Assembly: GCA_009760855.2 (NCBI GenBank)
Contig: WPIO01000016.1
Location: forward strand, 6,366,001 to 6,430,000
DNA from: Cristatella mucedo
Lineage: Eukaryota; Bryozoa; Phylactolaemata; Cristatellidae
DNA: 64,000 nt
Direction: 5' to 3'
Below, piece by piece: positions 4,488 through 64,000 of the stretch; the first letter of the stretch is position 1, and each line of letters starts with the position of its first letter. A program made the position numbers and the translations under genes. Below the pieces are notes generated by a model. It searched no databases. It was not told the DNA's origin and worked only from the letters and a program-made list of their open reading frames with translations.

Positions 4488-5266
4488 ATGTTCGGTCCTA
4501 CTCTAATCGTCTGCTTGTTGTGCGGCTGCTTGTGGCTGGCAGACTCGTTCGAAGTACCCACGCCACAGATCAGCGTTCTGAGACCTCGTGGAATACGCTT
4601 CCAGATTGGTGAGTATCGCCGCTTTGCCTCGGATCCTCCGCGGGTCATTGGACGTCCTGGCTAGCAGCCGCCTCTGCTGCGGCAACACCTTGAATGGATA
4701 ACTCGGGCCGAACGCTCAGCCTTAAAATGTCGAAAGTCGCGAAGCAAGTTGAGCATATGACCTTAAATGCTGACACACATGCACAACGATCGTGCACGAC
4801 CGACGAAGCCCTACATTGAAAGCGAGCTGAGTCTACCGGAAACTCGCTCCCGCCGAGCCTCAAGAGTCGGCCACTGGCGCCAAATCTGCCCAATCTCTCA
4901 CAGCCATCGTGATTAAAGAAATGAGGCCAGGCGCGTCGATCGTGCTGCAGCTTGCACCTTTTAGACTGCGCCTGTGTAGGCATCCTGGCTTGTCCAGGAT
5001 GCTCGGGACGTGCACCTGGCTTGAGTGCGAAACTGGAGCTCGAGGAACAGGAGGTAGCAAACGAAGGTCCACTTCTTCGTACGATCTCCGCATAGTAGCA
5101 TAAGCACTGGCCTGGCGTAGCGATTCCAGGTGCTTGCACGATAAAAACCGGAAACGATCGGTTCCAAGGTCGTAGAAAGTAGCGAGAAACCGCCGGAGGC
5201 TCAAGAGAGCGAGTGAGACGTGGAGAGAGCAGAAGACGTGGAGAAAATGGGAGACGGGGAGGGAGC

Positions 5267-5319
<53 letters not shown>

Positions 5320-8300
5320 AGGAGGGAGAGAGAGAAATCAGAATGAAAAAGAGAGCAAGATGGCGAAGGGAAAGAAGGCAGAGTAAGAGCATAGTTGCAG
5401 TAAGCCCTAATACCCTCCTGAAGTGGGCCGACTCGATCTTTCCTGTGTCGATCGATGTAGATAAGAGACTCGGTGATAATGAGGCACACGATAGCTCGAA
5501 AATCGCCAGTTGGTCTTTTGGAGAACGAGCCTCCAGCTTTGTTTTGTGTTTTCTAAGCTTCTAGAGACAATTCGCAGTCTACACTACCCTAGCCCCGGAT
5601 GTTCTGTTACCTCATCGCAGACGCCAGGCACACGAGCCCAGCGGGTAACTGCAGGAGGCCGTATGTTCCAAGGCCTATCAGGGTGCTGCTCAAGGGCATT
5701 TGTCTCAAAAGACCTCGAGATCTCAAAAGCTGATTTGTGGATATTTCAACGCATGTTTAAGGACGCATGTGTTCAAAAACACAATCTAAATACTGGTGTG
5801 GTACACCAAATCCAAACGCCAAATATGACGACAGCACGCAGCTAGAAAGTGTGTCAATCTATCGACACAGGTGTGGGTAGAGACTGTCGGGCAAGAAACG
5901 AGCGCTCTCGGCCAAACATCATAATACGCAGAGAGCAGAGAGCAGAGAAGCTGGCATGGAAGAGAAACGCTCACAAAGAGAGTAGAGAAGCAGGAGAAGA
6001 AGCGATGCGCTCACGAAGGGCAGAGAATGACGTTGGGTGCTCATTTGGCCTAGGGGTCAAGGTGCTCGCCTATAACGACCGACGTCAAGGTCAAGCTCAT
6101 CTTTACGACCGTCGTCGTGGGCTCGAGCCCTGTGGCTTATGTGAAGCACCTGGATAGAAATTCAGTCATTTTTACGACGCCATAAAAATGAATTATATGC
6201 TATTTATATTGCATTCTGGATGCCCGGTGAAGCCTGTTCCAACAAAAACTGAAATGAAAGCGAACGACAAATCGACAGAGGAAGACGGCGGCGCTTTCGT
6301 ATTTAGGATTCAACTGTGCTCGCTTCTTTCCTGCTTCAAAAATTCTTGTTTGGTTTTGATTTTATAATTTTATAATGTCGTGCTTCTGAGAGCGAGCGCT
6401 CGAGCTCGGCCGACGCTCGACGCGTTAGCGACGCACGACTGACTCGCGGTCCTTCCTGCTCTTATTGACTTCCGGTCTCGCCTGCACAAAGGCCAGAGCA
6501 AGGCTCGGACGCGGCAGCGGAGGAGAAGCTTCGCAGGTCACGTAGGATGCGCCGACTCCGTTCGTGCGCTCGGGCCAGTCGCACTGGCATTCTCATCGAT
6601 CGTCGCGAGACGGACTCGAAGAAGCCTGCTTCGCTTACTAACTGTCACTACAAAACTTTCCTTTCGCTGTAACCATATATTCATGTCGCCCTCTCTAGCG
6701 TACGAGTGTCGCTCAGGGCGCACTAGTCGAGCAGAGAATGAAAATATGCAGGCCGTTATCATCTTCAGTCAACCCTAGTTGTCTGCTGCTTCCGGTCAGT
6801 TCGTCAGAGTGAGGCAGAGAGCTTGGTACGGGCCACTGTGCTACGAACTGCCGCTCCTGCTACATGGAACCTGCACTTAGCGGCGAGAGTCTCGTGCCGG
6901 CTTTACAAGCTGAATGGAGTGCGTACGAATTCGCCGCGAAGAGTCCAGGCGCGAAGCTTCGGACTTTCCCCTACGAACGTTTGTGCCAAAGTTGCACTTC
7001 GCGCTCAAACCAGTTTGAGCGAGAAAGTCGCCGAGATTGTTTTCGCCACACTGGTAAAAGTCCGGAGATGCGAGCTAACAAAGGCTGTCGGAGAGTTCGT
7101 CCCCATCCGTCAACTACGTCAGCGTTCGCGGCGGGACGGCCTCAGCGAGGCCGTCCCGCGGCGGTGGCCTTCGTTTAAGACAAGGGCCTTCGAGCGAAAG
7201 ATCGCGTGTGGGAGCTCAGGCTAGTGAAAAGTCGGCGTCATAATTGAGCCAAATTAATAATAATAATAATAATAAAAATAATACCTTTGTTCTAGAGCCA
7301 TCCGAGAACTCAACCTGTTTCTAGGCACTTGAAAGCTCGGCGGAGTAAAGTGGCTTAACCTGCCGCTTACCTAGTGACGTAGCCTAGCGGCGTAGACTAG
7401 CGCCCAATGCCGTTCGGTGCGCGTCTACGCACAATAAGCAGGCCGCCACGAAACGAGCGCTTCAGGAGCTGACCTACTTATCATTACTCAAGGGGGTTGT
7501 GAGTCCGCGGCGTGAATTGGAAAGCGAGACACACACATTGGGGATCAATCGCCGGCGAACAGCGCCGCCCTCCTCCCTCGCTTTCAGAGAAATGAGTCCG
7601 GCAACTAGCGGCGACGGCGTCGAAGCGCGGAGCCTAAGATGAAGAAGAGGCGTCTAGCGAGCGTCGCCCTATCATTATATAAATAGCTGGGACAATGGGG
7701 TTGACAACCCAGCCAATATCGATCACCTCAGCGACCTCTGCGTCCCCTTGCTCATAGCTCGAGAACGATGCTCTTCAGCCACTTCTTTTGTTCCCACGGA
7801 AACCGTCCGGCAAATCTGGGATGGCTGGCGGTGACAGCGACCTTGGGCAAGCGTTGCCCTATTCTCAACGTGCAGGAGCTAAAGGTTGATACTCCAGGAA
7901 ATATCAATCACCTCATTGCCCTACTACGATGCATGCTGACCCTGTGCATGTCACCCCTAACCATATTATTCATTTCGTTTGTTTTTCAAGCATGATTTTA
8001 CTTACCATTCAATTGCATTTCACTTTACAGCAAATGTAAAGCGCCTAGAAAGAGATTAAGTTCTCTGAGGGCGCTTTATCAAGTGAATTATTATTATTAT
8101 TATCATTATGGCTGCGTCCTCTTGCTCTAGGACAGAAGTGTTTCCTGCTGAGCAATTCTCATGCGCTCTAAAATTGAGTCAGGCTGGCGCTATGCTACAG
8201 TAATGTATTTCCGTCTGTAACTCCACAAAGCCATAAAGACTATGTGGGTGTTACGCAAGAGAGTTTTGTATAGCGCACTCACAGACTGAGCGGCTTTCGG

Positions 8301-11300
8301 TACGCATTCGGTAGACAACAAACTTCGTCTCATGCAACAAAGAGAAAGGGGGAAGCATAGCATAGTCAGGAGAGCAGTTGAGGTAGTGAGTAGCATAGAA
8401 GTAGCAGCTCAGTACCGCTGAAAAGGATGAGCCATAGTCGGCAGCAGGAGAGTAGTTGTCGTTGCGTAAGAATTGTGGAAGCGAGTTCTGTAGTGTAGGA
8501 CCAGCAGAGCTAAAGCTTCTGTCGCCAACGGTCTTTAAGCGGAGGAATGGAGCAGCTAATTTATTATCCATACAGGACCCGAGGGCACGAGGAGGCTGAA
8601 ACTGGAGCAGCAGTTCAGCTAGGTACGAAGGAGCCAAGCCGTGGCGGGCCTTGTGGGTCAGCGTAAGAACTTTGGTCTGTATGCATTGATCAACCGCCAG
8701 CTATCCTAGCTCTTTTAGCACGGGTCGTGGGTTTGATAGCCGAGCTGTTGATAGGGCGAACGCAGGATGCAGGAAGGTTCTCACTGACCTGCCGAAGAAG
8801 GCCCGCCGGTAGGTATCGACTAATGGCGACACCGCACATTATGCTAAGCAGGTCCTGTTTTGTGTTAGAGGTTAATAATGGTTCCTGGGTTATGTAATCA
8901 TTAAGAGCCGAAAGCGTCATTATCCATGGTTTAGAGAGTGATGGGCGGTTGTAAGCTTTGGCCGATGCCGAGCACTCTCTAGCTGTAGAATATGCAGCTC
9001 CGCATTAGGGACGTGTACTTGTTAGCTATCAAGTTCAAGGGCGTTCTGGATAGCCGTAGTGGTTTGCTACTGTTGCCGAACCTGCGTGCATCGAGACGGC
9101 TTTCGCGGTTGGCTAGCCGTGCTTATAGAGGTCAGCTCTAGTGGAGGTCAAGGTCTAATGGAGGCCACCTGTCAAGCATCAACACGGATTGGCACTTGTT
9201 GCTTCTGCTCTGTTTACTGCAGAGGACGTGTTCAGCAGCTGCGGCAGCTTGTTCGTAACGCTAAATGCGACCGACGTCTGTTGCTGTAGGTCAAATTCCG
9301 GGCGTGAAGTTGATGGCGTACCATTACAGCGTCAACATCCCAGTGCCGGGGACGCAGGCCGGCCAACACAACTACGACGTTTCTCCTGTTGGTGAGCGTC
9401 TGCTGGCTCTGCTATCGGTAGCCGCTTCTTGGCTCCTGATATCCATCCCCTGTTCGTCTTTGACCGCTAACGCGATCGCTGCAGGTGGCAACTTCACTCA
9501 CGAGAATCGTCTCGTACCTGTGAACGACGGCGATACGGTGCACTACTGGGTGTATGCTATTTTTAATAATGGCCAGTCAGAACTCGGCTATCACTTACTC
9601 GACCAAGAGTGGACATACTCTCAGCCGCCGGCCAGTATTCCTACGCCTGCTACGCTGCTGCCACCCACTTACGGCACTCACAGACCTGTTTCATCACGTC
9701 CCACGGACGAGACCAACGCACGCCCTGGTAAGTCAAAGGGCCTTTTCAACCGTCAGGACTTGTTATTGTCGTCGTTATATTTATTAATATTCGCGCTTTT
9801 GCTCCTTGTTGCATCGTGCTATAAGAAATTGGCTGCTGCTGAACTCAGTGTCGCAGCCTCGGCTCTTACCGGTTACCCTGTAAGAAAGATCTACTCATTA
9901 AGTAGCCTCATTCAAACTAGCGAAAAGGAGTCTGGTCTGTGAACCACACTTTTATTATGCAAGGAACGCTCGGCTGCTGATGCTACATGCTTGCATGCGT
10001 GCGAATTTCGGAGCTACTAGCCAATTTTTCAATGACATTATTCGATAGACGTCACTGCAAACGGGTGTGCTGACGTAAAGAGTGCTTATTCAGCAAGCGT
10101 GTCGCAGATGCTACCGCCTTGCCGATCGAAAGTGAATACACAGCTTGCAATGAGCCAGAAGCGGATCTCTCCCAGAAACGAGGACGCGGGAGTAATTAGT
10201 CGAGCAAGACCGAGAGATGCAAGGGCTGGTTTGCAGATTATCGCTCTATCGCGTCTTTGCCAGCCCATCGAGACTTCGCGTGCGAGGCCTAGAGGTCAGT
10301 GCCATCGAGCGCATCCACTGGTGCGGCGGCGCCATCGACTGGCTCGGTGTCGATTTACTGATCGTCAGGGCAAGGAATTTAATGCAGCACGGCGTCGCTG
10401 CTCCAGTCCTTTTCGCAATGAGCCGCCTCGCACACGCAGGCATGTTCGCGAACGGCTTACTGAGAAAGCGACCGGGATGTGTGCTGCGGTAGTTTGATAT
10501 GTTGAAATCGCTCCTCTGCCAATGTAAACGAGCCGCCACAGCGAGCCCCGCATACAAGTCGAACTGCACCGGCTTTCGGCTCTTCTCTTTCGCTGACCCG
10601 CCAGTGACCTCCTGTGAGGGCGGCGATGTCTCTGGAAAGACTGCTGGGCCGGCAGAAGCTTCGGAGTGCCACATGTTTTCGAAAAGTTACAAATTCATGC
10701 TCTCGCCTTACTAGTTAGCTGGATTTACCGTGCGTGTAGTCCGAGCAACGCGGCGGCATGTCGTCAGCGTTGTTCTTGCTGGGCTACTGGGTTTAGTCTC
10801 TTTGTTGCCCTAAGGAGTCCGACGACCTCTCGTCCGACGACCTCTCGTCATCTCTCATCCTCTCGCTTGGTCGCTCTGGCTCGCGGCTAGTGTTGCTCAG
10901 AAATTGAAAAGTCACCTTCCAAACTGGCCCGAACAGCAAAACTCTTGCAATGTCTTCGATAATTGTTTGTGCGGCTGATTATAAAGTAACCTTTTACTAG
11001 ATGACCACACCAGCTCCAAGGTCAAGTATGCCTACTTTCAGTTACGCACAGTTGCAAAAAATCGGGCCTGCTCAGACAAGGACTCAGCAGTTTAGCAGGT
11101 CCAAGCGTTTGAGAATCCCATCTAAAAAAATACTAGCTGAGTTAACGGCCTCTTTTGTATAGCGACCGAAGAGCCTTTACGGCTATCACCACCGCTTTCA
11201 GCGACGCTAAAGAACCGACCACCATAGGATTCGAACCCACGCCGTTGGGACCGAGGTCGTGAAAAGCAACCGCCTTAACTAATGCGCCATCGCGGCCCAG

Positions 11301-13429
11301 ACTCTTGTTACACACTACTCCCCCCTCCCGTCTTCCGGCGCGTGCAATTAGACGCTTACGGTTTCTGCAAAACTCTGCAGCCAGGCAAGAACGCTCCGCG
11401 ATATTTTTGGTGGCTGGCAGCTGCTGCCGGCACAGGTGCAGCCATAAAGGCGAAGCTCGCTTGAGTCGCTTTGAGTCGCGTCTGGCCAGTCGCGGCGTCC
11501 TCTGAACCGCTCCTTGGCGAGACGTTCTGACGCGAGCTGATTTAAATCCGCTCAAGGGACGCACTTGCGGAGGCCGAAAGCTTGAAGAACTGTTGACAAT
11601 TTCTCTAGACTCTGCCTCTGGTGTCACCTCGACCGCTGCCGCCGATGGCGAAAATGTGTCGGCAGCTGCGCCAGCGCCTGACAGCGGTGGCCTGACGGCG
11701 ATACTACTATCGAGCATGACCGCGGTCTCCGTGGCCGCGCTTGTAGCCGTACTGGCCGTGTTCTTCGTACGGAGGTAAGCGCTTTACACCGAGGTCGATG
11801 ACCTCATGTCGATGCTCGCATTTTAAAATGCACGACAGATTCCAAGGCGACCCCCCCTTGGAGACTGGGAGCCACGTGATCGATTTTTAGCCCGAAACTT
11901 TCGCCGACGTGCTTGCGCGTTTCCAATACGCCTTTGGCTGGCTCGCGATTTCAAGCATTCTCTTTATTCCTGCGTTGGTGTCTCACGCGGAGGGGGGGAC
12001 TCGCTGCTGCTGTACGGCCATTTTGACCGTTGACCTCGACCTTTGAGCCAGAAGTCGTATCCGTCGGCTGAGAATACTCGCTGTAGCAGGTTTCTAATTA
12101 TTAATTAGCAAATAAATTAATAAATATTAAAACAATAGCTGCTCATAAATCTAGCGCTCCGAGTTTCAGTACCTGCAAGGATGAACACGTGGTAGCCGGA
12201 TTCGCAGGTTTGTGAAGCGGAGCCTAAGAAAGCTGTTTCCGTAGAATAGCTGTTGCTGCTAGTAACCACCGGTGGCTGTCATCCCGTGTGTGCTGTCTGC
12301 TGAGGAGAGATCAGCGTCGCCGAATGCGAGGGCGACAAGCGAGTTGATATCTAACCTGCGAAAGCTGGCAAAGCCAATTTGCAAGAGTCCTCTATCCACT
12401 CTAGCCAGTGGCCGACGACGCTCAGTTTAGCAGACCCGTCGGCTACAAGAGTCAGGTGTACAGCTGTACACGTGTTTTCAACACACGTGCCGCGGCTCGA
12501 AGCTTGCAGCCCGACGCTTATTACATAACTTGACTTCCTGCCTGAAATCCTCGCGCGAATTCACTGCGACTGAATTCTACGCGACTGAAGCAAGTATGCT
12601 GCCTTGACCTTGGACTCGAGCATAGCTGGTCCCTCCTTAGTCATTATTATTCTGGAGCCGCAAATACTGGCTATCTCGGCGGTCATAATCTGCCCGACGA
12701 AGCACGCCGAAGCACGCTGCAGCTGCCGAGGCCGCTCGGCGAGCTGCGATACGAGTGGGCGCTCTTCAAGCTATCGGCGGCGGCGGCGAGCCCGTCGTCG
12801 CTTTCTCGTCTTCTAGAGCGAAACGCTCGGCGAAGTCGAAGCATTCGCCGAGAGATCCGCCGAGGCCAAGGCCTTCTCTGCCCGAGCGGCCGACGGCGTT
12901 TGCGCAGCCCTGGTCAACGAGTCCGGTCTACGAGGATGGTTCGGGCTACGAGGATCCGGATAGTTTGTTCGTTTCGAGCGGCGCTCGCCGAGAGGCGGCT
13001 GACAGAGCGGCGGCTTGGCACCCATCCATTCACCCTCTACTGAAAGGGACGAGACCGAATGCTCCGACGCTGGCGCCTCACGAGTACCTAGGACTGGTGA
13101 TGTCAGGGAAGGTGGTCGACGGTGGCTACATCTCACCGATTTCGGAGGCGAGAGCGTCAGCGGAGGCGAGAGCGTCAGCGGAGGCGAGAGCGTCAGCGGC
13201 GCCCCACGAGTACCTAGGATTGGTGATGTCAGCGAAGGTAGTCGACGGTGGCTACATCTCACCGATTGCGGAGGTGAGAGAGAGCGCCGGAGGCGGCCTC
13301 GCGCGGCCCGACCCGATGCCTCTTTCCTTCGAAGCAGTGACCAACGGGCGAGCACGCGACCCGTACCCGTATTCGCACTTCTGGGCACAAGCTCCACTCC
13401 GGGGCCGTCCTATACGCTGTAACTGCTAA
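4488..13429 (+). CDS. Membrane-anchored CBM39 beta-1,3-glucan-recognition receptor with tyrosine-motif tail (5 exons)
   Basis: Exons are 4488-4608, 9290-9391, 9485-9727, 11609-11774 and 12817-13429. Junction phases are 1, 1, 1 and 2 on both sides, each with GT donor and AG acceptor; they sum to 414 codons plus TAA. Residues 1-20 are a signal peptide (hydrophobic core LIVCLLCGCLWLA). Residues 21-119 match the CBM39 domain at the N-terminus of GNBP/beta-GRP proteins: FEVPTPQI, a PGVKLMAYH strand, ENRLVPVNDGD, VHYWVY and a terminal GYHLLDQEWTY. Residues 120-183 are a Pro/Ser/Thr linker, 184-209 a transmembrane helix followed by RR, and 212-414 a cytoplasmic tail. The tail has PSLPER (PxxPxR, SH3 type) and tyrosines Y249, Y255 (YEDP), Y301 and Y343 (YLGL), Y315 and Y357 (YISP), Y394 and Y396. 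Known family members carry a GH16-like domain after CBM39; here it is absent. Inferred role: surface sensing of fungal or algal glucan with SH2-based signalling. The last exon could also splice at GAG|gtgaga (13273). No convincing poly(A) signal follows. Confidence 0.85.
5275..5337. repeat. Imperfect AG microsatellite
   Basis: AG run 5275-5311 followed by purine-rich GGAGAG variants; lies in intron 1 of the receptor gene. Confidence 0.95.
6040..6205 (+). mobile_element. tRNA-derived SINE (family 2)
   Basis: TTTGGCCTAGGGGTCAAGGTGC is A-box-like and GTGGGCTCGAGCCCTGTGG B-box-like. The tail ends with GCCATAAAAATGAATTATAT, similar to the tail at 46.9 kb. Lies in receptor intron 1. Confidence 0.7.
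7131..7159. repeat. Perfect 13-bp inverted repeat, 3-nt loop
   Basis: Arms GCGGGACGGCCTC and GAGGCCGTCCCGC around AGC; within receptor intron 1. Confidence 0.9.
7931..8110 (+). mobile_element. LINE-A 3' end fragment
   Basis: Starts at GCATGCTGACCCTGTGCATG and ends with GGGCGCTTTATCAAGTGAATTATTATT. Severely 5'-truncated insertion inside receptor intron 1. Confidence 0.9.
8196..8940 (-). mobile_element. LINE-B copy with large internal deletion
   Basis: The minus strand joins the LINE-B N-terminal ORF2 segment (8690-8920: ISRYLPAGLLRQVSENLPAS, NSSAIKPTTR) directly to the C-terminal segment (8251-8637: [28 protein letters not shown]). The endonuclease and RT cores are missing. The possible start codon context CCATGG lies near 8920. 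The 3' end reads CTTTGTGGAGTTACAGACGG. Lies in receptor intron 1. Confidence 0.85.
10995..11092 (+). mobile_element. Short LINE-A ORF2 fragment
   Basis: Translates with gaps to the LINE-A segment LDDHISSTVKSAYFQL...KIRACLDKD. Both ends are truncated. In receptor intron 3. Confidence 0.75.
11128..11302 (-). mobile_element. tRNA-derived SINE (family 1)
   Basis: Minus-strand head GGCCGCGATGGCGCATTAG, B box GGGTTCGAATCC, and tail GCTATACAAAAGAGGCCGTTAACTCAGC. In receptor intron 3. Confidence 0.85.
13145..13198 (+). repeat. 3 x 18-bp coding tandem repeat in the receptor tail
   Basis: Unit GAGGCGAGAGCGTCAGCG encodes EARASA three times and separates the two YLGL/YISP modules. Confidence 0.97.
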
Positions 13430-13749: not shown

Positions 13750-15390
13750 CTGTAACTCCACAAAGTCATAAAGACCACGTGGGTGTTACGCAGGAGAGTT
13801 TTGTATAGCGAACTCACAGCCTAAGCGGCTTTCGGTACGCATTCGGTAGCCAACAGACTTCGTCTCACGCAACAAAGAGAAAGTGGGAAGCATAGCAGAG
13901 TCAGGAGGGCAGTTGAGGTAGTGAGTAGCATGGAAGTAGCAGTTCAGTACCACAGAAAAGGATGATCAATAGTCGGCAGCAGGAAAGTAGCTGTCGTTGC
14001 GTAAGAATTGTGGAAGCGAGTTCCACAGTCTAGGACCTGCAGAGCTAAAGCTTCTGTCGCCAACGGTCTTTAAGCGGAGGAATGGGACAGCTAATTTATT
14101 GTCCACACAGGACCTGAGGGCACGAACAGGCTGAAACTGGTGCAGCAGTTCAGCTAGGTACAAAGGAGCCAAGCCGTGGCGGGCCTTGTGGGTCAGCGTA
14201 AGAACTTTGGTCTGTATCCTTTGCTCAACCGGCAACCATCCTAGCTCTTTCAGCAATGGAGACACGTGCTCCAACCGCTGGGACTTGAATACCAGCCTTG
14301 CAGCCATATTCACAGTCCGCTGTAGTGGCATAATAGCTTTCTTTGGTAGCCCAGCCAAAAGGGAATTACAATAATCAAGCCGAGACAGAACTAAAGAGCT
14401 ATTTAAATTTTTTACAAGCCTCTGTGGGAGACAGCTCCTAATCTTGGATAGGGATCGGATGTGATGGCTAGCTGTAGAGGCAGTCTTCTGAATGAAGCTT
14501 TTGAATTCGAGGCAGCTGTCGAACACGACACCTAAATTACGAGCACGTGGTAAAGGTCGCACAATAGCATCACCTATTAGAACAGCAAAGCCTTTTAATC
14601 CAGCCACACGTTTAGGGTGTCCTATGAGCAGCAGTTCGGTTTTATTGTCATTTAATTTCAGGAAGTTTTCCGACATCCAGGATCGAATATCGGCAAGGCA
14701 AGCATTCAATTTCTCAGTTGCTGCAGCAGATTCCGACGGTTTAAATGATAAATACAACTGGGTATCGTCAGCATAGAAGTGATATCCTATTCCATGGGCC
14801 GTAATCACTTTTCCCAGAGGTTGTGTATAAATGGAGAACAGCAAGGGACCGAGTATAGACCCTTGAGGGACTCCACAGGTGACCCTTCTCGTGTCTGAGA
14901 CCTGACCCCCACACGACACGGATTGAACTCGATCAGACTATTATGATTTAAACCATGCCAGTGCTTCGTCTGCCAGACCGATCGTTGTTCTCAATCGTTC
15001 AAGCATAACTTCGTGATCAATGGTGTCGAAGGCAGCAGACAGATCTAGCAGAGCTCGGGCAGTGACATTCCCGTCGTCGTTGCCACGTAGAATGTCATTG
15101 TTAACACGTAGGAGAGCAGTTTCAGTAGAGTGCTGCCTCTTGAACCCTGATTGAAATGTTTCTGACATTCCATTAATTTCAATATGTTCAACTAGCTGCT
15201 TAGCAACAATTTTTTCAAGAATCTTTGATAAGAACGGAAGAAGGGAAACTGGCCGATAGTTTGCAAGGACCTCTGTGTCTAATCCAGGCTTTTTAAGAGT
15301 AGGTCTAACGATTGCCGATTTGAAGGACTTGGGGACGACCCCTTTCCCCAAAGAAGCATTAAAAATCGAATGCAGAGCTCGCTGCTGCAC
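13750..15390 (-). mobile_element. LINE-B copy, 5'-truncated, RT region largely preserved
   Basis: Two adjacent minus-strand frames (13966-14919 and 14941 to about 15390) cover the RT from [18 protein letters not shown] through [26 protein letters not shown] and the catalytic [10 protein letters not shown] to the thumb/C-terminal part [20 protein letters not shown] stop separates the frames after AWFKS, so it is not intact. It is truncated at the start of the RT (about 15390). The 3' end at 13750 reads CTTTGTGGAGTTACAG. It lies 0.3 kb after the receptor stop on the opposite strand. Confidence 0.92.
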
Positions 15391-16972
15391 AAACTCGTCC
15401 AACAGCCCGTCCGAGCAATGGGTCTGACGCATCGACCCGTGCAGGCGGTCGGTCGTTGAGCGCATTCGCGCGAGCGTCTTCCTGATCCTTCTGGGAAATT
15501 CTCGACGTTTTTCGGTGCCTAGTCTGTACTCAGAGGGCGCCGAGGCTCGAGAATTATATCCGATTTCAAGAGATCTCACAGCTCCAGCTCCAGCCACTTC
15601 GCTCGCTTCCCTTCGAATGCTGCTCGCGCCTTGTGCTCTGCTGGCGGGAATGTCGTCGAAGGCTTCGTGTGTCGTTTACGAAGCGAACATGCACCGGATG
15701 GACTCCGATTTAGTCCATGCGAATATAAATAATTCACCGGACAGATTTTTTGTATCTCTTGTGAAGCGGAGCGCATGTCTTACGGCGTCACTTCTGATAG
15801 TGTTAACGCTAAACGAACTTGTGCTAAACAAACTTGTGCTACACAAACTTGTGCTAAGCAAACATGTGCTACTGCACTAGGATTCGCCGGACGAACAGCC
15901 GGTACAGCTCAACTTGTGAGGTCACTGCTTTTTACGTGTCCGGCTATGCAAGCGGATGGCTAAACCCTCAGAAGCTGGTCGGCAGTTGAACCACAAACAG
16001 AAGGTAGCTCCCTAAGACACAATTCTTTGAGGTTGCCGGAGTAACTTAATCTTCAGCTCGGACCGGATGCGAACCGCAAGCTCAGGTCAGGCTTTGAGTT
16101 CGCTATAGGGATCCTGTGGTCCGACCCATTTAGTCCTTGTGGCTTCGTCGTTTGACTCTTTTTTTAATCTAGTTAATGGCTTAGCTAGAGAAATTTGTGG
16201 CACTGTATTTTGAGCTCTAAAATTCAGTAAAAATAATGATGAAAGCGCGAACTATTGTAAAGAGAACTAATCTTGCTTCAAAAACCGTATAAGAGCACTC
16301 GCACAGGTATGTGTACATACATGCATCCCTTCCTACATACATACACTGCTTATACAATATATGCACATGTACATACACATACATTCAGTATATAAACACA
16401 AGTTGACATTCGTAAATTGCATATATGTTATAAATATGTACACATGTTAGCCATAATTATAATGAGATCGGCCTAGCAGCGCATGCAGCCCACGGTAGCG
16501 TTCCATGTCTTGTTCTGCATCGATGCTACTTCCTGGTTGCAAAGGAGGGCTTTCTCCTTGCTTCTATTCCTAGTAAGCCAAAATGATCAAATAATAATAC
16601 TATAATCAACACGCATTTCAAAAATACAAAAAAAATCGTCGCAATGCACTTACAGATGAAGCAATCGATGACAAAATACGATTTTGCTTGACTTTGCCGT
16701 TATAGTGCTACCGAAAGAGGCAGAGACAGCTCGACCCGTCGAGCCACGAAAGTGGCATAATTCAAGGTCATGATACCACGAAAGGTCAAGGCGTCGAGTA
16801 CTGAGGGGTAGGGCTGCTACAGATAACGAACGTAACACGAATGATTCGGAGGATATCGAGGAAAAATGTTTCGTCGCACGAAAGTTTAGCGGACGCTAAA
16901 GCATTGTGGGATGTGCTCCTGCTTGTGCTCTGGCTTGAGCAGCTCCACGAGGGATTCCTGTAGGAACGTGCA
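15391..16972. other. Intergenic; short tandem repeat and low-complexity patch, no gene
   Basis: A four-unit 15-bp repeat (AAACTTGTGCTAAAC type) lies at 15817-15872. CATACA-rich low-complexity sequence lies at 16300-16450. No gene is recognised. Confidence 0.7.
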
Positions 16973-24875: not shown

Positions 24876-26565
24876 ATGATAATAATAATAATAATGCACT
24901 TGATAAAACGCCCTCAGAGAACCTAATCTCTCTCTAGGCGCTTTAAATTTGCTGCAAAGGGAAATGCAATTGAATGGCGAGTAATATCATGCTTGATAAA
25001 CAAACAAAATGAAATGTGTGCTTGCTGATTAAACAGCCTCTTTTTGTATAGCGACAGAAGAGCCTTTACGGCTATCACCACCGCTAGCAGTGGCGATAAA
25101 GAATCGCCCACCGCAGGAATCGAACCCACGACCTCGGGAGCGAGGTCATGAAAGCAACCACCTTACCTAGTGTGACATCACGGCTGGTTAGGGGTGACAT
25201 GCACAGGGTCAGCATGCAAATGTGGTTAGAGGCAGCATGCACAGTGTCAGCCGCGTAAGTACATGAAGGACGAATCACAGGGACCTACTAAATGCTGTCC
25301 TAAATAGGTCTGTTTTTAAGTTCTTTTTAAATGTGGTCAAGTCAGGGGATGTTCTGACGCAAGTCGGGAGCGAGTTCCAGGCTTTGGGAGCATACGAATT
25401 AAATGCACGGTGTCCAGAGGATTTGAAGTTTGTAAGAGATATTTATAGACTGTTTGATTCCGAAAAGCGGGTGGTACGATGCTTGGCCTGATGGGGGAGT
25501 ATATCTGAGAGATAGGCTGGAGCCATAGAATAAAGTGACCTAAAAGTGAGTGACAAAACTTTGAAGTGAATCCGATGCTTGACTGGTAGCCAGTGCAGGT
25601 CGGCCAGAAGTGGTGTAATGTGGCAACTGCGACGCTCACGACAGACAAGCCTAGCTGCGGAGCTTTGCACCAGCCTCAATCGCCTGATCGCACATGTTGG
25701 TAGGACAGTAAGCAGTGAGTTGCAGAAGTCGAGACGGGATGTCACGAATGCATGGACCAACTTGGACGTGGTATCCTTATCTAAACAAGCCCGAATTTTA
25801 GCAATGCTATGAAGCTGAAAATAGGCAGATTTGACTGTGGAGCTGATATGGTCGTCTAACGAGAGGTCGCTTGGGAATATGACACCAAGATTCCGAGCTG
25901 ATTCGACAGGAGATATGCTGGCAGAGGCAATTTTGAGCGTCAGCCTTTCCAATTTGTGAATTACACTGGGTTTGCCCATAACTAGTAAGTTGGTTTTATC
26001 ATCGTTTAGTTTTAGAAAATTCGCTGCCATCCATGTGCGGATGTCATCAATATACGCAGCAAGGGAGATGAGAGAATTCGAGGTGCTCGAAGGCTGGGAG
26101 GGATCAAAGCAAAGGTACAACTGAGTGTCATCCGCATAGAAGTGAAAGCCTAGATTGTGCATGGCAATCACATCAGCAAGAGGGAGAGTATAAACCGTGA
26201 AAAGAACCGGACCTAGCACTGAGCCCTGAGGTAAGCCATATTTCAGAGGTACCTCAGATGATTTTTGTCCATTCACGTCAATACTCTGGAGTCTCCCACT
26301 GAGATAGGACCTGAACCACTGCTCTCAGTGATGCCCTGGCGAGATGAGAGGCGCTCTAGAAGAACTCTGTGATCGATGGTATCAAAAGCTGCCGAAATAT
26401 TGAGCAAACCAAGCAGAGACACTCTACCCATGTCTGAATTCCTAAGTAGGTCGTTGTATACCCTAAGCAATGCTGACTCTGTGGAGTGATTAGCTCGGAA
26501 GCCAGACTGGAACTTACTAGCAAGGTGTGAGGTTTCAATATATGAGTTCAGCTGGTTTCCCAACG
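24876..26565 (-). mobile_element. LINE-A copy inserted within the LINE-B
   Basis: Minus strand: from SYIETSHLASKFQSGFRANH (26565) through [26 protein letters not shown], the intact catalytic [14 protein letters not shown] and the C-terminus (25443-26276) to the 3' UTR and the (ATT)n tail at 24876. One frameshift between frames 26273-26593 and 25443-26276. A SINE interrupts its 3' UTR at 25014-25183. Confidence 0.92.
25014..25183 (-). mobile_element. tRNA-derived SINE (family 1) nested in the LINE-A 3' UTR
   Basis: Minus-strand head CAGCCGTGATGTCACACTAG, B box GGGTTCGATTCC, tail GCTATACAAAAAGAGGCTGTTTAATCAGC. LINE-A sequence ends at CAAAATGAA and resumes at GGTTAGGGGTGACATG. Confidence 0.9.
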
Positions 26566-27405
26566 ACCCGTTTAACGTGTCGGACCAAACCAAAATTCTC
26601 TAGACGGTCAAGAAATGAGCGGACCTGGCTGGTTTGTTAGGTTTGTCAACGTGAATATTGAAGTCTCCTACAATCAGTAACAGCCTGTCACACACAAACA
26701 TTTTAGCGAGGAACTCTGAAAATTCCTCTATAAACAAATTTAGACAGCCAGAAGAAGGCCGGTATATCACAACAGTGAGAGACATTGTCTTTGATGAGGA
26801 CCTGATTGTAACCGTGTCAAACGATGGCCCATACGAGAAACTGCACATTTTATAGCCAAACGATTCGCGAACAACAATTGCAACCCCGCCACCAACCTTG
26901 TCAGGACGCATGGACTGATAGAATGAGAACCCGGGTGGGGTGGTCTCAGAAATACATCTACTTGAACAAGGCGTAATCCAAGTTTCGGTTAGCAGAAATG
27001 CATCTAGCTTCTTCTGGACCACCTGATCACGGATAAGTAACCCCTTGGATTTTAGCGAGCGGACATGTAGTAGGCGGAATTTAAGAGGCTGTCCAACAAC
27101 TGGGCAACGGCGATGAAGTGGCTTGTATTCACGTCGGCGTGTATCCGGCCTGGCGAACGCGGGCTCTTCGAATTTGAATTGGACCTTAGTAACGGCCGCC
27201 GGTCGACGTTTCACGACGTGCTGGGCTACGGCGGGTGGGCTACCGCCGCAACAAGTACTATTCAGTGCTTTAAGCTTACGAGTCGTAGGCTTGATAGCCG
27301 AGCTGTTGATAGGGTGAACGCAGGATGCAGGAAGGTTCTCACTGACCCGTTCGAAGAAGGCCCGCCGGTAGGTATCGACTAATGGCGACATCGCACCTCA
27401 TGAGT
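26566..27405 (-). mobile_element. LINE-B copy, 5' part with APE-type endonuclease
   Basis: Minus frame 26600-27391 carries SENLPASCVHPINSSAIKP, then the endonuclease: LLTETWITP, GGGVAIVVRESFG and GDFNIHVDKP. In the next frame the sequence continues FLDRLENFGLVRHV and stops at the LINE-A junction; the missing continuation is found at 24875. The N-terminal segment matches the LINE-B copy at 8.7-8.9 kb. Confidence 0.9.
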
Positions 27406-37492: not shown

Positions 37493-39561
37493 TCTTGGCA
37501 ATTGTCGCCTTCGCAACTTGGGCATTTGAACCGCGAGTGCCGCAGACGCCGCGCAGCCATGCAGCTTGTTCCGCCTTTTCACCGCTTGTCACTGCACGAT
37601 GGCGCCGGCGTAGCGCTCCGAGGCTGCAAAGCGAAAAGTTAGGTCAGCCGATCAAAGGTAGCCTGACTCAGTTTATATCGACTTTTAAGCGCCTCGACGA
37701 CTATGATCAGCGCTTGCTGTGGGCAATAAAGGATTTAGCCTGCTGCTGCTGCTGCCGCAGGACTCGAGCCCGCGATCGCGATCTGAAGCTCGCGAAACGC
37801 GCGCGCGCGGGCGGATATTCTTCGCAGGCATCTGCGACTGAGGCGTCCGCGAACTCTTTTAACGGCTCACGTGCAGCTCGCGCGACGCCCTACATGATTT
37901 GCAATGGGTGCCGACAGAGGCTTTTTGCAGAGCGACGAAACGCGAGCGATCCTTACACACGCTGGCGTTACATTGAAGAAAGCTGCTGGCGCTGCGCTTT
38001 TAGTGGATCGTTGCTAAATGCGCATAACTTGGCTGCTGCTGCGAATTAGTGGATACATTTTAAGGTTGCCCGATTTTAGTTAGCCAAGGTCGTTAACCAA
38101 AAGTGATTGAACACGGTATCGATCCTGATATTTTCAGCCAAGGTCAAGGTCAATGTTACTCACAAGTCAATTAATCGGTTAACCATTACGTCTGAGGTTT
38201 TCCCCGATTCTTCGTCACCATTTTTGGTGCGAACGCGTGTGCGGTCCGTAGAGCTTTGATGGATATGCAATTGCAAAGCCGTAGCACCGCACGTAAGCGC
38301 CGCGTCCTGGACGCTAGCCTGATAGGCTGAAGCTGGTTTGCCGCGTGACGTAGCCTCAGGGAACGTAAGCTACAGATCTCTCCGTGACAGTGGCTCCTGC
38401 CGATCGTACAGGACAGGCGGGAATTTCTAGAGAAATTATGAGCGCCGAATGTCATTAGTCGTTCAACGAGCCACGTTTCAAATGAAATAAGGATAGCAGC
38501 TACCCTGCGGGTAATACGTCGCACGCTGGCTGACCAAGTAAGCCGAGCTTCGAGGCAGCGCAGGCCGCACGATGTTGTCAATGTGCTTGTTGTCCACCGG
38601 AGACACGCTAACATTAATATATTAATATTAATAGTAATACTAATACAAATTTCTTTGCATCCTGAGAGAACTTCATCTATATTCAGGCTCATTATAACTC
38701 GCTGCAAGAGAAGCAATAGCCAATGGTTGATTAGATGCAAGGTATTGTGCTTAATCAGACGTGCAGAAGCACGCAATTATCATCTTAAAGCAAAGCGCAT
38801 GCAAAGCGCACAAAAGACTCGTTCATCCTGGTCGCTGGTTAGTGAGTCTCGCAGCTAGCAACTCTCACCATGCACATTTAAGGAAAGCGTAAAGGAAAAA
38901 TGCGGGTCCAGTGGGTTGCTATAAACAAGCGTGCTTCAAGAAAACGTCACTGCCCGCCGCTGCGATGGTGCGTTCGGGTGCCGCAGCGCGACTCTGCGAG
39001 CGCTCGCGCCAACCCAGCGCTTCCGCTTGACTTCCACCAGTGCCGCGGAAGCCAAGGCACGCTCATCAATCGGGCCGCTGTTGGTTAAGCGAGTGGAAAC
39101 CTCGGACGGGCGCTGCTGACAGCGAGCCGACTCTTCGGGTTTCGAAGAGCGAGCTGCCGGCGCGATCTGAGCTCGAGCCGGCGCCTTTACCGTTCCGTCT
39201 TCGCTCCGCTGCAGCGTGGCTTTCGGCCGCTCTTGCAGCGCAGCTTTCTCTCCTCCCCTCCTGGAGAGCATCTCCTGCGCTCTATCGGGCGATCGAATCG
39301 TCGCGCAGAGCAGACTGACCGCGTCTTGGCCACCCCTCTCTGCCTCATCTCGCAACGCACTGCCGGCTTTTCGTGCGGCCTCACTGAGAGTTTCTTCTTC
39401 AAATAAATGGAACGAAAGCGTCGACTGCTCGTCTACTTCGCGACCGCGGGCGTGCCGCGCGAGGCGTCGGATAGAGTGCGACTTACGATTGCGCGTCGCT
39501 ATTGGCGGCGAGCGAGAAAGATAGAGCGCGCGGCGACTAATACAATGCAGGAATCGTCGAG
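37493..39561. other. Intergenic before CAP gene A; SINE remnant only
   Basis: 37695-37775 resembles the minus-strand SINE family 1 (GGGCAATAAAGGAT, CTGCTGCTGCCGCAGGACTCGAGCCCGCG). Upstream of gene A I see no TATA box or clear promoter. Confidence 0.45.
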
Positions 39562-41198
39562 ATGGGCAAGGGAGACTTCGCCAAGGAGTGCCTAAAAGCG
39601 CACAATGGCTACCGGAAGCTGCACGGAGTGCCCAAGCTGAAGCTCTCGTCTGACCTGAGCAAGCACGCGCAGAAGTGGGCGGAACACCTGGTGGAGGTGG
39701 GGTCGCTGTCGCACAACGACTCGCTGTACAATGGCGACCGGTTGGGTGAGAATGTGGCCATGAAATGGTCCTCCGTGGAGCAGGATTACAAAGGTAGGCA
39801 CCGCCGCGCTGCGACGGACGCCTCCGCCCAGCTCAGGCGCGCGCCACGTCGCCGAATGGTACAGGCCTCTCGCAATGTGGCTAACGGCTTCTACGTTTAA
39901 GCCGAAGAATTTGTGCAGCAGTGGTACAGCGAGGTCAAGGACTACGATTTCTCATCGTCGAGTCAGACACTGAAGACTGGTAAGACATTCTGCACCTGAC
40001 ACTAAATGCTTTAACACATTACGCTTCCCTAAGTATTCCAGGTTTACTTTTTTTAATAGGATCGCGAAAATACAGTGCTACGTTAATTTGCTAAATCGCT
40101 TTTCCGCTTTTTATTCAATCAATACATTTAGGAATCAAGAGCTTTTCTTCAGCAATTTCCTTAAATGCAGCTAAAACTCCGATGCGTAGTAGCACCTAGA
40201 CACAGCTGCGCACTCGCGACATAATTTTGCTGAAGCTTCAGCCGGAAACGCAGCGAGGACTGTGAGGACTCGATAAGCACGCGTCCCCTCCCCCGTAAAT
40301 CGTGGTAAAACAGTCGCGAACGCGGCTGAGTTTTACGCAAGAAATCCCGAACGACCTCCATAATTCCCGATAGAAAGGGGACGGCCATTCTCGATAGCTG
40401 CTTCATCGTTTTTCCTTTGAAGTTCCGTGAAGCTTATTGGTCTCACAGAATAGTCGCAGTAGGCCGCCGAGATTACTTCAATTTAAGTGAGAACGAGAAA
40501 AAACGCACGCCGACTTAGGTAGAACTTAGGTCTTGGCGCAGCGGCGCGGCGCGGTGGCGCTCGCCCTCGCGCTCGATGACCCGAGGGTAGCCGGTTCGAG
40601 TTCCGCAGCGGGCACTTTCTGTATTGCTGCGCGCCGCCTGCAGCCGAGCGGGCGCGCAGAGGCTCTCCTTCCGCTTAATGAATGAGGCTTACGGATCAGC
40701 CGCCGACACGCGTGCTCGGATGTTGCTTCGCGGATTCTACTAAGCCGAGAATTTGGGCGAGGTGCGAGCGTTCTAGCGGAGACCCGCTAGAATGCGCTTT
40801 TCGGCAGTAGTGCTCAGGTTGAACCCCCGATAGGTCGATCCGCGAGAGCGGAGCGATATGCTTTGAATAGTGCGCTCCGCGCTCCGTCAAATTTCAATGC
40901 TTCGCAGGATAAGAGACGATTGCTCCGCCCGCGACTCCGAGTCTCGTAGGCGTTTCTTCGAATTTCTTCTCTTTAGGTCACTTTAGTCAGGTGGTCTGGA
41001 AGAGCAGCGCAGAGCTCGGCGTCGGCATGGCCAAGAAAGATGGCCGCTGGATCGTCGTCGCCAACTACAAGCCAGCTGGCAACTTTGTCGGTCACTACAA
41101 AGACAACGTCTTTCCCGCTTCTTCAAAGCCTGCAGGAGCAGCGCACAAGGACGGAAGCAGCAGCGACAGCGACAGTGACGACAATCGAGGCGCCAAAG
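39562..41198 (+). CDS. CAP gene A: GAPR-1-like CAP-domain protein, CAP exons 1-3
   Basis: Exons are 39562-39793, 39902-39979 and 40977-41198, all joining in phase 1. The start MGKGDFAKECLKAHN fits the N-terminus of Golgi-associated PR-1-like (GAPR-1) proteins, with no signal peptide, so a cytosolic or membrane-peripheral protein is expected. The four residues of the CAP cavity are present: H51, E63 (GENVA), E88 (WYSE) and H105. The CAP1 signature is GHFSQVVWKSSAELGVG and the CAP2-like strand is WIVVANYKPAGN. Mammalian GAPR-1 is N-myristoylated on Gly2; here Gly2 is kept but residue 6 is Phe rather than Ser/Thr, so myristoylation is doubtful. After the CAP domain come about 28 residues rich in Ser, Asp and Lys. 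The exon could end at the weak donor AAAG|gtcagc (41198), or read on to a stop at 41326. Unlike genes B and C there is no intron at the HN-Y-R position. Confidence 0.85.
40533..40640 (+). mobile_element. tRNA-derived SINE head in CAP gene A intron 2
   Basis: GGTGGCGCTCGCCCTCGCGC as A-box region and GCCGGTTCGAGTTCCGCAG as B box. GC-rich variant. Confidence 0.6.
40815..40910 (+). repeat. 96-bp dispersed repeat, copy 1
   Basis: Shares ATAGGTCGATCCGCGAGAGCG, GCGATAT and AATAGTGCGCTCCGCGCTCC with 43851-43946. In gene A intron 2. Confidence 0.9.
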
Positions 41199-50934: not shown

Positions 50935-53453
50935 ATGAAGCTGAGCGCCGCAGGTACCCGGCCGGACAGCGCCGGCAAGGCAGCAGCAGCGGCCGGGCAG
51001 AAGGCCCAAACGCCGCAGCAGTTCGCCGACGGCGCTCTGCTCGCGCACAACGCTTACAGGTAGCTTCCGCCGCCGAGCCGTGGTCGCAGCCGTCGCCGCC
51101 TTCCGAGCGGCTGCCGCCTGTTCGGCGGGTACGGGTGGGGAAGGGGTGAAGGGGCGACCCTAGGCGGCGGTGCTAGGAGCGGCGCTTTTCGGCGACGGAG
51201 ACACGGAGGCCACGGAGCGCTCTTTCGCTGCGCGGGCTGGTGGTGCGTCTCCGCTCGGTCGGTCGGTCGGTCGTCCGACGGCGCCTGCGGCCGCGCGCCT
51301 TTTAGGAAGAAGCACGGCGCTGCGCCGCTCGCCTTGGCCAAGGACCTGTCGGAGTACGCTCAGAAGTGGGCCGAGCACCTGGCCAAGATGGGAACCCTGC
51401 AGCACAGCGAGGCGAAGATCAAGGGCGAGAGCATCGGCGAGAACGTCGCCTCCAAGTGGAGCTCGGGCGCGGCCGACTACACGGGTGAATGAGCGCGCCT
51501 CGCTGTCGCTGCTGAGCCGCAGCGGAGGCGGCCTTTCGGCTTCGTCGTCGGTCGACGTGCCGGCGCTTGGATGGATGCGAAGAGCTGACGAAGCTCCGAC
51601 GAGCGAGACGTCCAGGCGAGAGCTTCGGCCTCAGCGCTTAGTGCGACGCCTCGGCCCTGCCGCAGCCCTGCCGCAGCCCTGCCGCAGCCCTGCCGCAGCC
51701 CTGCCGCAGCCCTGCCGCAGCCCTGCCGCAGCCCTGCCGCAGCCCTGCCGCAGCCCTGCCGCAGCCCTGCCGCAGCCCTGCCGCAGCCCTGCCGCAGCCC
51801 TGCCGCAGCCCTGCCGCAGCCCTGCCGCAGCCGCAGCCCTGCCGCAGCCCTGCCGCAGCCCTGCCGCAGCCCTGCCGCAGCCCTGCCGCAGCCCTGCCGC
51901 AGCCCTGCCGCAGCCCTGCCGCAGCCCTGCCGCAGCCCTGCCGCAGCCCTGCCGCAGCCCTGCCGCAGCCCTGCCGCAGCCCTGCCGCAGCCCTGCCGCA
52001 GCCCTGCCGCAGCCCTGCCGCAGCCCTGCCGCAGCCCTGCCGCAGCCCTGCCGCAGCCCTGCCGCAGCCCTGCCCCAGCAAAAGCCGGTCACGCTTCAGG
52101 CCAAGAGGTCACCGATCAGTGGTACAGTGAGGAAAGCCAGTACGACTACAGCGGAAGGAGCAACGCTGGAGCTAGCGGTAAGCTCGGCGTCGGCGGTGGC
52201 GGCGGCGGATGGATATGGATAATTTATGGGCGCTATATAAATGAATTATATATATATATTTTTAATTATATGGAAAAGCGCCGGCGGCGGCGGATGGCAT
52301 GCCCACCCTTCCCCCCCCCCCCGATAGCCGACCGCTGATCAGCCAAGTAAAAGTTAAACTAAAGTAGAGGCGGGCTGATTCAACAGCCTACGTAGCTGGA
52401 GAACAGCCTCAACGGCTATCGTCACTGCTGGCAGCGGGCGATGCAGAATTGTCTGCAGCAGCAGCAGCAGCAGCAGGACTCGAACCCATGACCCAAGACC
52501 CAGGGGTCGAGTGGGACGAGCGCTCCACGCGGGCTTGCTTGCAGTCTACCGTCTGTCTATTCTAACATCGGTAAATAACGTGTGCGTATGCGCTGTCTCG
52601 CCAGAGAAGCGTGCTTCCGCTGGCGAGGGCAACAGTCTGGGCTGGATGAGGTAATCTCACGTACTTCCCCGTCCAAGCTCCCCAGCACTAAATACCGACA
52701 CAGCAGCGAATACTGAAATAGGCCACGCTCACTAAGAGTGCGTCTTTATGGCTCCGAGGGTGAACACCTGACCTAATCGATCCCGCGTTCTCGTGGCGCG
52801 AGAATCGCTATTTAACCAGTCCTGAGCGTGCGAAGTGCGAAGTTTAGACACGGCGACTCCAGCTGGTGCTCTTAAAGGCACGGCGAAAAACCGCACCCGC
52901 GCATGCCGCGGCCGTCCGCACGCTACAGATACCCGCTGCCGCTGAGATCAGCTCAGCTCCTACAAACTACACGGGGCAGATCAGTTCGTAGCGATTGGCG
53001 GTGGCCTGTACTCGTATTGCTGGAGTCGCTGTGTGGCCTTCTCGCCATCGGCCTCAGCCAATAGGGTTCTCGCTATCTTTTTCGCTAGCTTTGGCGCTTG
53101 TTATCTGTTCAGTCTCGCTACTTTTTCTAAGCTTAGCCCGATCTTTTGCAGAATTCGTGATGCTTTAATAAGACTCAGTTTCGCCGCGTGTTCGTCGGTG
53201 GCACGCTCCCGAATCCTCTAACGCTGCGTGGCGCCGCTTCGCGACTGTGGCACCAGCGTTGCTCACTCACCGCGAGGTTTCCTCTTTCTCGTTTCCCTTG
53301 GCAGGTCACTTTACGCAGGTCGTCTGGAAAGGAAGTCGAGAGCTGGGCATTGGAAAAGCAGCCAATGCCAAGGGACAGGTGTTTGTCGTGGCCAATTATA
53401 GACCTGCCGGAAATTACCTGGGCCAGTTTAAGGACAACGTGAGTCGTAACTGA
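50935..53453 (+). CDS. CAP gene B: complete GAPR-1-like CAP-domain protein, 176 aa
   Basis: Exons are 50935-51059, 51306-51484, 52100-52177 and 53305-53453. Phases 2, 1, 1 agree and the total is 177 codons including TGA. Residues 1-26 are an Ala-rich polar extension without a hydrophobic signal; the CAP domain starts at TPQQFADGALLAHNAYR. The CAP cavity residues are H75, E87 (SIGENVA), E112 (WYSE) and H129 (GHFTQVVWKGSRELGIG), and the last core strand is FVVANYRPAGN. The length fits a single-domain GAPR-1-like protein, known to bind lipid membranes and form amyloid-like assemblies in mammals. The 78-nt third exon has the same length as gene A exon 2, and the 179-nt second exon the same as gene C. 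Intron 2 contains a long 11-bp minisatellite ending about 20 bp before the acceptor. The final exon contains GACAAC|gtgagt, a good donor, so an alternative longer C-terminus is possible. Confidence 0.88.
51654..52078. repeat. 11-bp minisatellite in CAP gene B intron 2
   Basis: Unit CAGCCCTGCCG is repeated about 38 times with one shortened unit near 51830. The array ends 21 bp before the exon 3 acceptor. Because 11 is not a multiple of 3, every frame is open through it. Confidence 0.98.
52205..52262 (+). mobile_element. SINE/LINE tail fragment
   Basis: GGGCGCTATATAAATGAATTATATATAT, the typical terminal motif of the family-2 SINE. Confidence 0.55.
52375..52545 (-). mobile_element. tRNA-derived SINE (family 1) with CAG expansion
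   Basis: Minus-strand GGGTTCGAGTCC B box preceded by CGACCCCTGGGTC, and tail ending AGGCTGTTGAATCAGCC. A (CTG)n run of about 7 units has grown next to the B box. In gene B intron 3. Confidence 0.8.
52842..52955 (+). repeat. 114-bp direct repeat, copy 1
   Basis: Near-identical to 53991-54104: TTTAGACACGGC, CTCCAGCTGGTGCTCTTAAAG, GCGAAAAACCGCACCCGCGC, CGCTGAGATCAGCTC. Confidence 0.95.
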
Positions 53454-62117: not shown

Positions 62118-63710
<1,593 letters not shown>

Positions 63711-64000
63711 GTGCGTTGGCTCGCTCGCGCTCACGAAGCGCTCGGCTCGCGCTCACGCGAACTTTCCCGGCGTCAAGCAGCGGCGGTGGCGCCGCGCTGC
63801 GCCTCGAAGTCGTCGCCGGATCGGGCGGCCGCTTGCTGCGGCAGCAGCAGCGTCTCGCGACAGTATCCGGTCGGCAGGAAGTCACCGCTGTGACCTTTGA
63901 GCTGGCTGCTGCTGCTGCTGCTCGGCGACGCTTCGCGTGCGGCGCGACCTGCAGCAGCTGCGGCGCGTCAGAGAGAGACGGCGACGGCGACGGGCCGCTC

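Follow-up and report, generated by a model that had tools for sequence, protein, structure and literature searches.

A predicted gene of five exons occupies positions 4488-13429 of the + strand of the 64-kb window (the whole stretch of DNA that was analyzed), and its joined exons amount to 1245 nt that encode 414 amino acids and a stop codon in an intact frame. Exon 1 (4488-4608, +) contains the start codon, a hydrophobic leader (approximately residues 1-20) and the first part of a CBM39 domain; exon 2 (9290-9391, +) continues this domain and includes Asp70, which corresponds to the Asp49 position of insect beta-GRP; exon 3 (9485-9727, +) encodes the end of CBM39 (to about position 9624) and the start of a Pro/Ser/Thr-containing stalk; exon 4 (11609-11774, +) encodes stalk, the transmembrane (TM) helix and the first basic residues behind it; and exon 5 (12817-13429, +) supplies a basic juxtamembrane stretch, the cytoplasmic tail (residues 211-414) and the stop codon. 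All four introns are of the GT-AG type, with consensus-like donors (GTGAGT, GTGAGC, GTAAGT, and GTAAGC) and with acceptors that end, for introns 1-4, in CTGTAG, CTGCAG, CTCTAG, and TTCTAG. The start phases of exons 2-5 are 1, 1, 1, and 2, so that the junctions are phase-compatible. The 414-residue frame and the GT-AG junctions bear out the five phase-compatible exons proposed in an earlier, sequence-only reading of this DNA, and the gene structure given there is confirmed. The protein comprises, in this order, the hydrophobic leader, CBM39, the stalk, one further hydrophobic helix, the basic segment RRAKRSAKSK and the long tail; two N-glycosylation-type sites (residues 77 and 171) are located in the ectodomain.

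In a scan from the stop codon to position 15358, neither AATAAA nor ATTAAA was found, so that the nearby 3' region lacks a canonical poly(A) signal; only variant signals follow, the first being CATAAA at 13767. When extra copies of the gene were sought in the window by tblastn with both the 414-residue protein and its relative P0001 (see below), the strong matches were the five exons, all others being at E 0.16 or worse, and neither Rfam at gathering thresholds nor tRNA scans reported anything. Intron 1 includes a GA dinucleotide array (5271-5335) and, at 8254-8700 (-), a fragment that by eye resembles LINE-like open reading frames (ORFs). Such ORFs with a reverse transcriptase match (RVT_1) are present at 13969-14937, 14944-15675, and 25446-26324 (-), and another LINE-like ORF, at 26603-27397 (-), has an endonuclease-type match just under the cutoff. 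Farther along the + strand, three of the ten ORFs scanned (39541-39897, 51064-51489, and 63308-63997) match the beginning of a CAP domain (PF00188; E = 1.7e-08, 1.9e-04, and 7.6e-07, respectively), which suggests a cluster of CAP-type genes downstream of the putative receptor gene. Two overlapping ORFs, 51164-52219 and 51589-52335 (+; together spanning 51164-52335), encode a long array of a roughly repeated PAAALPQPCRS and lie close to a CAP-type exon.

An HMM search against CBM39 had been suggested as a check; run in Pfam on residues 1-155, it matched CBM39 (PF15886) at residues 23-121 with E = 5.7e-20 and 71.5 bits, far above the cutoff of 25, and the full-length query gave E = 4.9e-19. Eight PDB sequences matched at E<=1; the five significant ones, at 2.3e-11 to 5.8e-08, are all chains of GNBP3/beta-1,3-glucan-binding protein, and the other three are an epimerase matched by the tail (E>0.3). 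A chance match to CBM39 is rejected on the strength of the Pfam result together with these structure matches. A weak match to CBM_56 (E = 0.02), under the Pfam cutoff, is no evidence in itself; a passage of a review describes CBM56 as similar to the GNBP3 N-domain (PMC7915573).

Asp49 of Bombyx beta-GRP is given as a glucan-interacting residue in a figure legend of that review (PMC7915573). For the mapping of positions, the 3AQX chain was numbered, by choice, from its mature Tyr; the Bombyx chain is either 3AQX or 3AQY, both of which have Asp in the column concerned. Two beta-GRP positions are kept in the 414-residue protein (Asp49 as Asp70 and Trp76 as Trp96) and four are changed (W46 to H, W58 to F, R61 to E, and R87 to H). 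Of these, Trp76 and Arg87 are presumably glucan contacts in beta-GRP. A glucan-type binding site thus defined by homology appears plausible, and because several beta-GRP positions differ, a shift or even a loss of glucan specificity is possible.

The TM helix (11695-11769, +; approximately residues 185-209) is delineated by hydropathy, and a helix is confidently predicted at the matching place in P0001. Its best 19-residue window, residues 191-209, has a Kyte-Doolittle mean of 2.47; a hydropathy of at least 2.0 is reached in 71 of the 5792 reading frames sampled from the window, so hydrophobic stretches as such are not uncommon. In the predicted protein the helix is followed by the basic stretch and then by about 204 residues, and the same order is found in P0001. 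Another hydrophobic segment is encoded directly behind exon 3, which raises the alternative that the main product is a different isoform, in which the exon-3 donor is read through to yield CBM39, this other segment and a short tail that ends at 9942. The frame stays open there for 71 codons (9728-9942, +), as it does for at least as long at 709 of 7604 intron starts, and the hydrophobic stretch has a mean of 2.60, a value reached by 20 of the 7604 intron starts (this one included) and by 13 of 5792 window samples. However, the exon-3 donor, GTAAGT, is strong, the first signal past 9942 among those scanned is a weak variant at 10135, and P0001 possesses a TM helix and tail of the type encoded by exons 4 and 5. 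It is accordingly quite improbable that the read-through form is the main product; as a second membrane isoform produced beside it by intron retention, such a form is possible.

Only one relative was found. P0001, a 415-residue protein encoded on a 2029-nt contig with the source label lgn, was the sole match among 13 candidates in a search with the CBM39 region (E = 9.4e-34). The CBM39 regions of the two proteins are 62% identical across 121 residues (BLASTP), and exon 1 aligns with P0001 from residue 1. In P0001, a leader precedes CBM39 (Pfam, 6.3e-17), after which a long stalk rich in Pro and Thr leads to one more hydrophobic helix and then to a tail; since a 415-codon open frame is accommodated on a 2-kb contig, the contig seems to derive from a spliced transcript. 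Modeled with AlphaFold2 from its sequence alone, P0001 came out poorly overall (mean pLDDT 45.3), with CBM39 not confident and the confident part being mainly the TM helix (residues 241-278, where 10-residue blocks score 70-92). When the tails were cut after the TM helix (203 residues in the 414-residue protein and 141 in P0001) and aligned, the score was 89, which was reached by none of 2000 shuffles (mean 41, maximum 75). Besides the overall layout, the two proteins share the motifs YEDPD and GY(I/F)(S/T)P(I/V); they differ in that P0001 has a longer Pro-rich stalk, a shorter tail and other repeated units, among them a TAWA...EDPDK unit recognized by eye. The full-length search with the 414-residue protein scored 7996 candidates, with none at E<=10, P0001 included, and our guess is that low-complexity words of the tail crowded P0001 out. 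The reciprocal search, with CBM39 of P0001, returned only P0001 itself among 38 candidates.

CBM39 is the only domain above the Pfam cutoff in either protein, and the same search found GH16 in neither. At the locus itself, no GH16 was found in 30 of 85 + strand ORFs; in these, even the strongest matches were weak (E 0.044 or worse) and unrelated. The list of 85 covers + strand ORFs from 9.3 to 38.9 kb with 60 aa or more and without low complexity, and the 30 scanned all lie within 9.5-24.3 kb; the other 55 are 7 ORFs within that interval, including 2 that correspond to exons of the gene itself, and 48 beyond it. Low-complexity ORFs and those under 60 aa stood outside the scan. Split exons are hard to see in an ORF scan, and a distant set of GH16 exons could have escaped it. 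These results and the layout of P0001 speak to the alternative that the gene model is an artefact, whereby the CBM39 exons would belong to an ordinary GNBP with GH16 exons elsewhere and the TM and tail exons would be fortuitous. Introns 1 and 3 are long, intron 1 contains repeats, and the gene model of this locus is predicted from sequence, all of which leaves room for such an error; yet a single open frame of P0001 contains CBM39, a TM helix and a tail that can be aligned, and GH16 did not turn up among the ORFs scanned, so that an artefact of this kind is highly improbable. A purely accidental origin of the TM and tail exons is rejected given the P0001 layout and the tail alignment (0 of 2000 shuffles). 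Because the parts of P0001 follow one another in the same order and its tail can be aligned, the TM and tail exons are unlikely to have been joined by chance and are very probably part of the CBM39 gene. The signal peptide, CBM39, single TM helix and 204-residue tail of the sequence-only reading are thus upheld by hydropathy, Pfam and a second protein. The same can be said of its view that a membrane anchor and tail replace the GH16-like part, given that CBM39, one TM helix and a long tail without GH16 occur in two proteins; P0001 also has the combination of CBM39 and a TM helix without GH16 for which a search of related genomes had been proposed.

The tail of 204 residues (211-414), encoded entirely by exon 5, contains two PxxPx[RK], two YxxL and three YxxP motifs, so that all three motif types previously noted there were recovered by the motif scan. 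In both proteins, PxxPx[RK] is located near the membrane; PSLPER (12872-12889, +; residue 230), which we take to be a class II SH3-ligand-like motif, lies opposite PSRPSR of P0001 when the full-length proteins are aligned. A 17-nt direct repeat in two copies (88%; 12921-12955, +) encodes YEDG and YEDP (Y249 and Y255), with YEDPD aligned to P0001. Farther along, two 83-nt units (13072-13154 and 13198-13280, both +), which are 93% identical, each encode EYLGL and YISP (Y301 and Y315 in the first, Y343 and Y357 in the second), and between them lies an 18-nt repeat of 3.2 copies (13143-13199, +). The units differ by three synonymous and three replacement changes, with no replacement inside EYLGL or GGYISPI, and these are too few to show selection. 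The YxxP motifs (YEDP, YISP, and YISP) account for three of the eight tail tyrosines, a borderline excess (shuffle p = 0.06) that is inflated because two of the three sit in the duplicated unit; in the P0001 tail, all three tyrosines belong to YxxP motifs (YEDP, YQTP, and YFTP; shuffle p = 0.0029), and the ectodomains have no YxxP excess (shuffle p of 0.61 and 1.0). In the alignment, YEDP lies opposite YEDP, the first YISP (Y315) opposite YFTP, and the first EYLGL tyrosine (Y301) opposite EYQTP of P0001.

The shared PxxPxR and YxxP motifs point to a tail that would be phosphorylated by Src-family/Abl kinases and dock CRK-type SH2 domains, rather than one that signals through Syk. A Dectin-1-type membrane glucan receptor, with Syk signaling via YxxL/hemITAM, would be in keeping with the two YLGL motifs and with the same expected class of ligand. 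The ITAM consensus is YxxL/I-x6-12-YxxL/I, and the hemITAM consensus is acidic; a motif scan with consensus patterns matched neither of these, nor NPxY, in either the 414-residue protein or P0001. Moreover, YxxL is not conserved, because the first YLGL tyrosine (301) aligns with YQTP in P0001. An ITAM or hemITAM in the tail is rejected by the lack of a pattern match in both proteins, and a Dectin-1-type receptor signaling via Syk is improbable. The sequence-only interpretation of the protein as a convergent analogue of Dectin-1 with a hemITAM is therefore partly supported: the expected ligand and the general layout stand, the likeness to a glucan receptor being fairly drawn because the Asp49 position is kept as Asp70, and the hemITAM does not. 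The YLGL motifs also match the generic Yxx-hydrophobic pattern, which is an endocytic sorting consensus, and the protein could be a membrane-tethered glucan binder, the tail of which serves trafficking, adhesion or feeding (for example, sorting of dietary glucan in gut cells) and not immune signaling. Nevertheless, it is YxxP and PxxPxR that are conserved in P0001, and YLGL is not, which makes a role of this kind unlikely, if still worth serious consideration.

The best explanation, which we hold with about as much belief as doubt, is a receptor that is clustered by glucan, phosphorylated by Src-family/Abl kinases and coupled through Crk to uptake; the receptor layout is well supported, and the signaling is what we infer. 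The product would be a type I membrane pattern-recognition receptor, the extracellular CBM39 of which, judging by its family, would bind structured beta-1,3-glucan, such as that of fungal walls, with the flexible stalk keeping the domain away from the membrane. Polymeric ligand would then cluster the receptors, a step proposed because the N-domains of soluble beta-GRP oligomerize on laminarin, as stated in part of the review cited above (PMC7915573). Src-family/Abl kinases, possibly held by the juxtamembrane PxxPxR, would phosphorylate the YxxP motifs of the tail, and the duplicated tyrosine-bearing units would raise the docking valency. The phosphorylated YxxP would dock a CRK-type adaptor, after which the cytoskeleton would change in a Rac-dependent manner and the glucan-bearing particle would be taken up. 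Precedents for these steps are described in several sources: the TM scaffolding receptors DCBLD1/2 bind the CRKL SH2 domain via intracellular YxxP after phosphorylation by Src-family kinases (Fyn) or Abl (PMC6029619), recognition of pYxxP by CRK SH2 is pre-metazoan, with choanoflagellates possessing TM proteins with cytosolic YxxP repeats (PMC5043372), and Crk acts in phagocytosis (PMC2689226). The final uptake step is debated even in known systems, because direct Crk II-DOCK1 contact is dispensable for engulfment in one cell system, according to a passage of the latter source (PMC2689226).

More tentatively, the two proteins might represent an undescribed family of invertebrate beta-glucan phagocytic receptors, in which CBM39 has moved from the secreted GNBP context to a membrane chain, the tail has grown by duplication of tyrosine-bearing units, and signaling proceeds through Crk and not Syk; the task that Dectin-1 performs in vertebrates would then have been solved independently. 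The sequence-only reading was aware of no receptor described with such a layout, and we likewise found no earlier CBM39-TM receptor among the matches listed in the open-licence PMC literature. A CBM39 receptor with a signaling tail of its own would be an immune receptor of a kind not familiar from invertebrates. It would link the fungal wall directly and cell-autonomously to the cytoskeleton, and with its YxxP docking it would parallel Dectin-1 independently.

According to part of a review, insect beta-GRP/GNBP3 acts as a soluble sensor and sets off the Toll pathway and the prophenoloxidase cascade (PMC7915573). The 414-residue protein resembles these proteins in its N-terminal CBM39, which has 28 of 101 aligned columns identical to PDB 3AQX and keeps the Asp49 and Trp76 positions, but differs from them in several residues and in that no GH16-like domain was detected, a TM helix and a 204-residue tail being present instead. 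A domain that senses fungal sugar, normally part of a secreted protein, thus appears joined to a membrane anchor and an inner tail in which signaling-type motifs recur. GNBP/beta-GRP proteins are soluble or GPI-anchored and tail-less, in contrast to the predicted TM helix and cytoplasmic tail found here. The nearest described form is Drosophila GNBP1, which, in a passage of one study, is soluble or GPI-anchored at the membrane and binds beta-glucan (PMC4309185); its anchored form has a lipid anchor and no cytoplasmic tail, compared with the TM helix and tyrosine-motif tail of the 414-residue protein. Dectin-1 (CLEC7A), which part of the above review outlines as a type II protein that combines a C-type lectin domain with an ITAM-type motif (PMC7915573), is similar in the proposed layout of a glucan receptor with one TM helix and tyrosines in its cytoplasmic part. 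Unlike Dectin-1, the protein described here is of type I and carries CBM39, with no C-type lectin domain above the Pfam cutoff and no ITAM or hemITAM. The several intracellular YxxP motifs are shared with DCBLD1/DCBLD2 and with p130Cas-type scaffolds, whereas the DCBLD and Cas domains are missing (only CBM39 exceeds the Pfam cutoff) and the CRK docking is here predicted; the duplicated YxxP units recall the repeated YxxP of p130Cas, where the repetition is discussed as a means of signal amplification.
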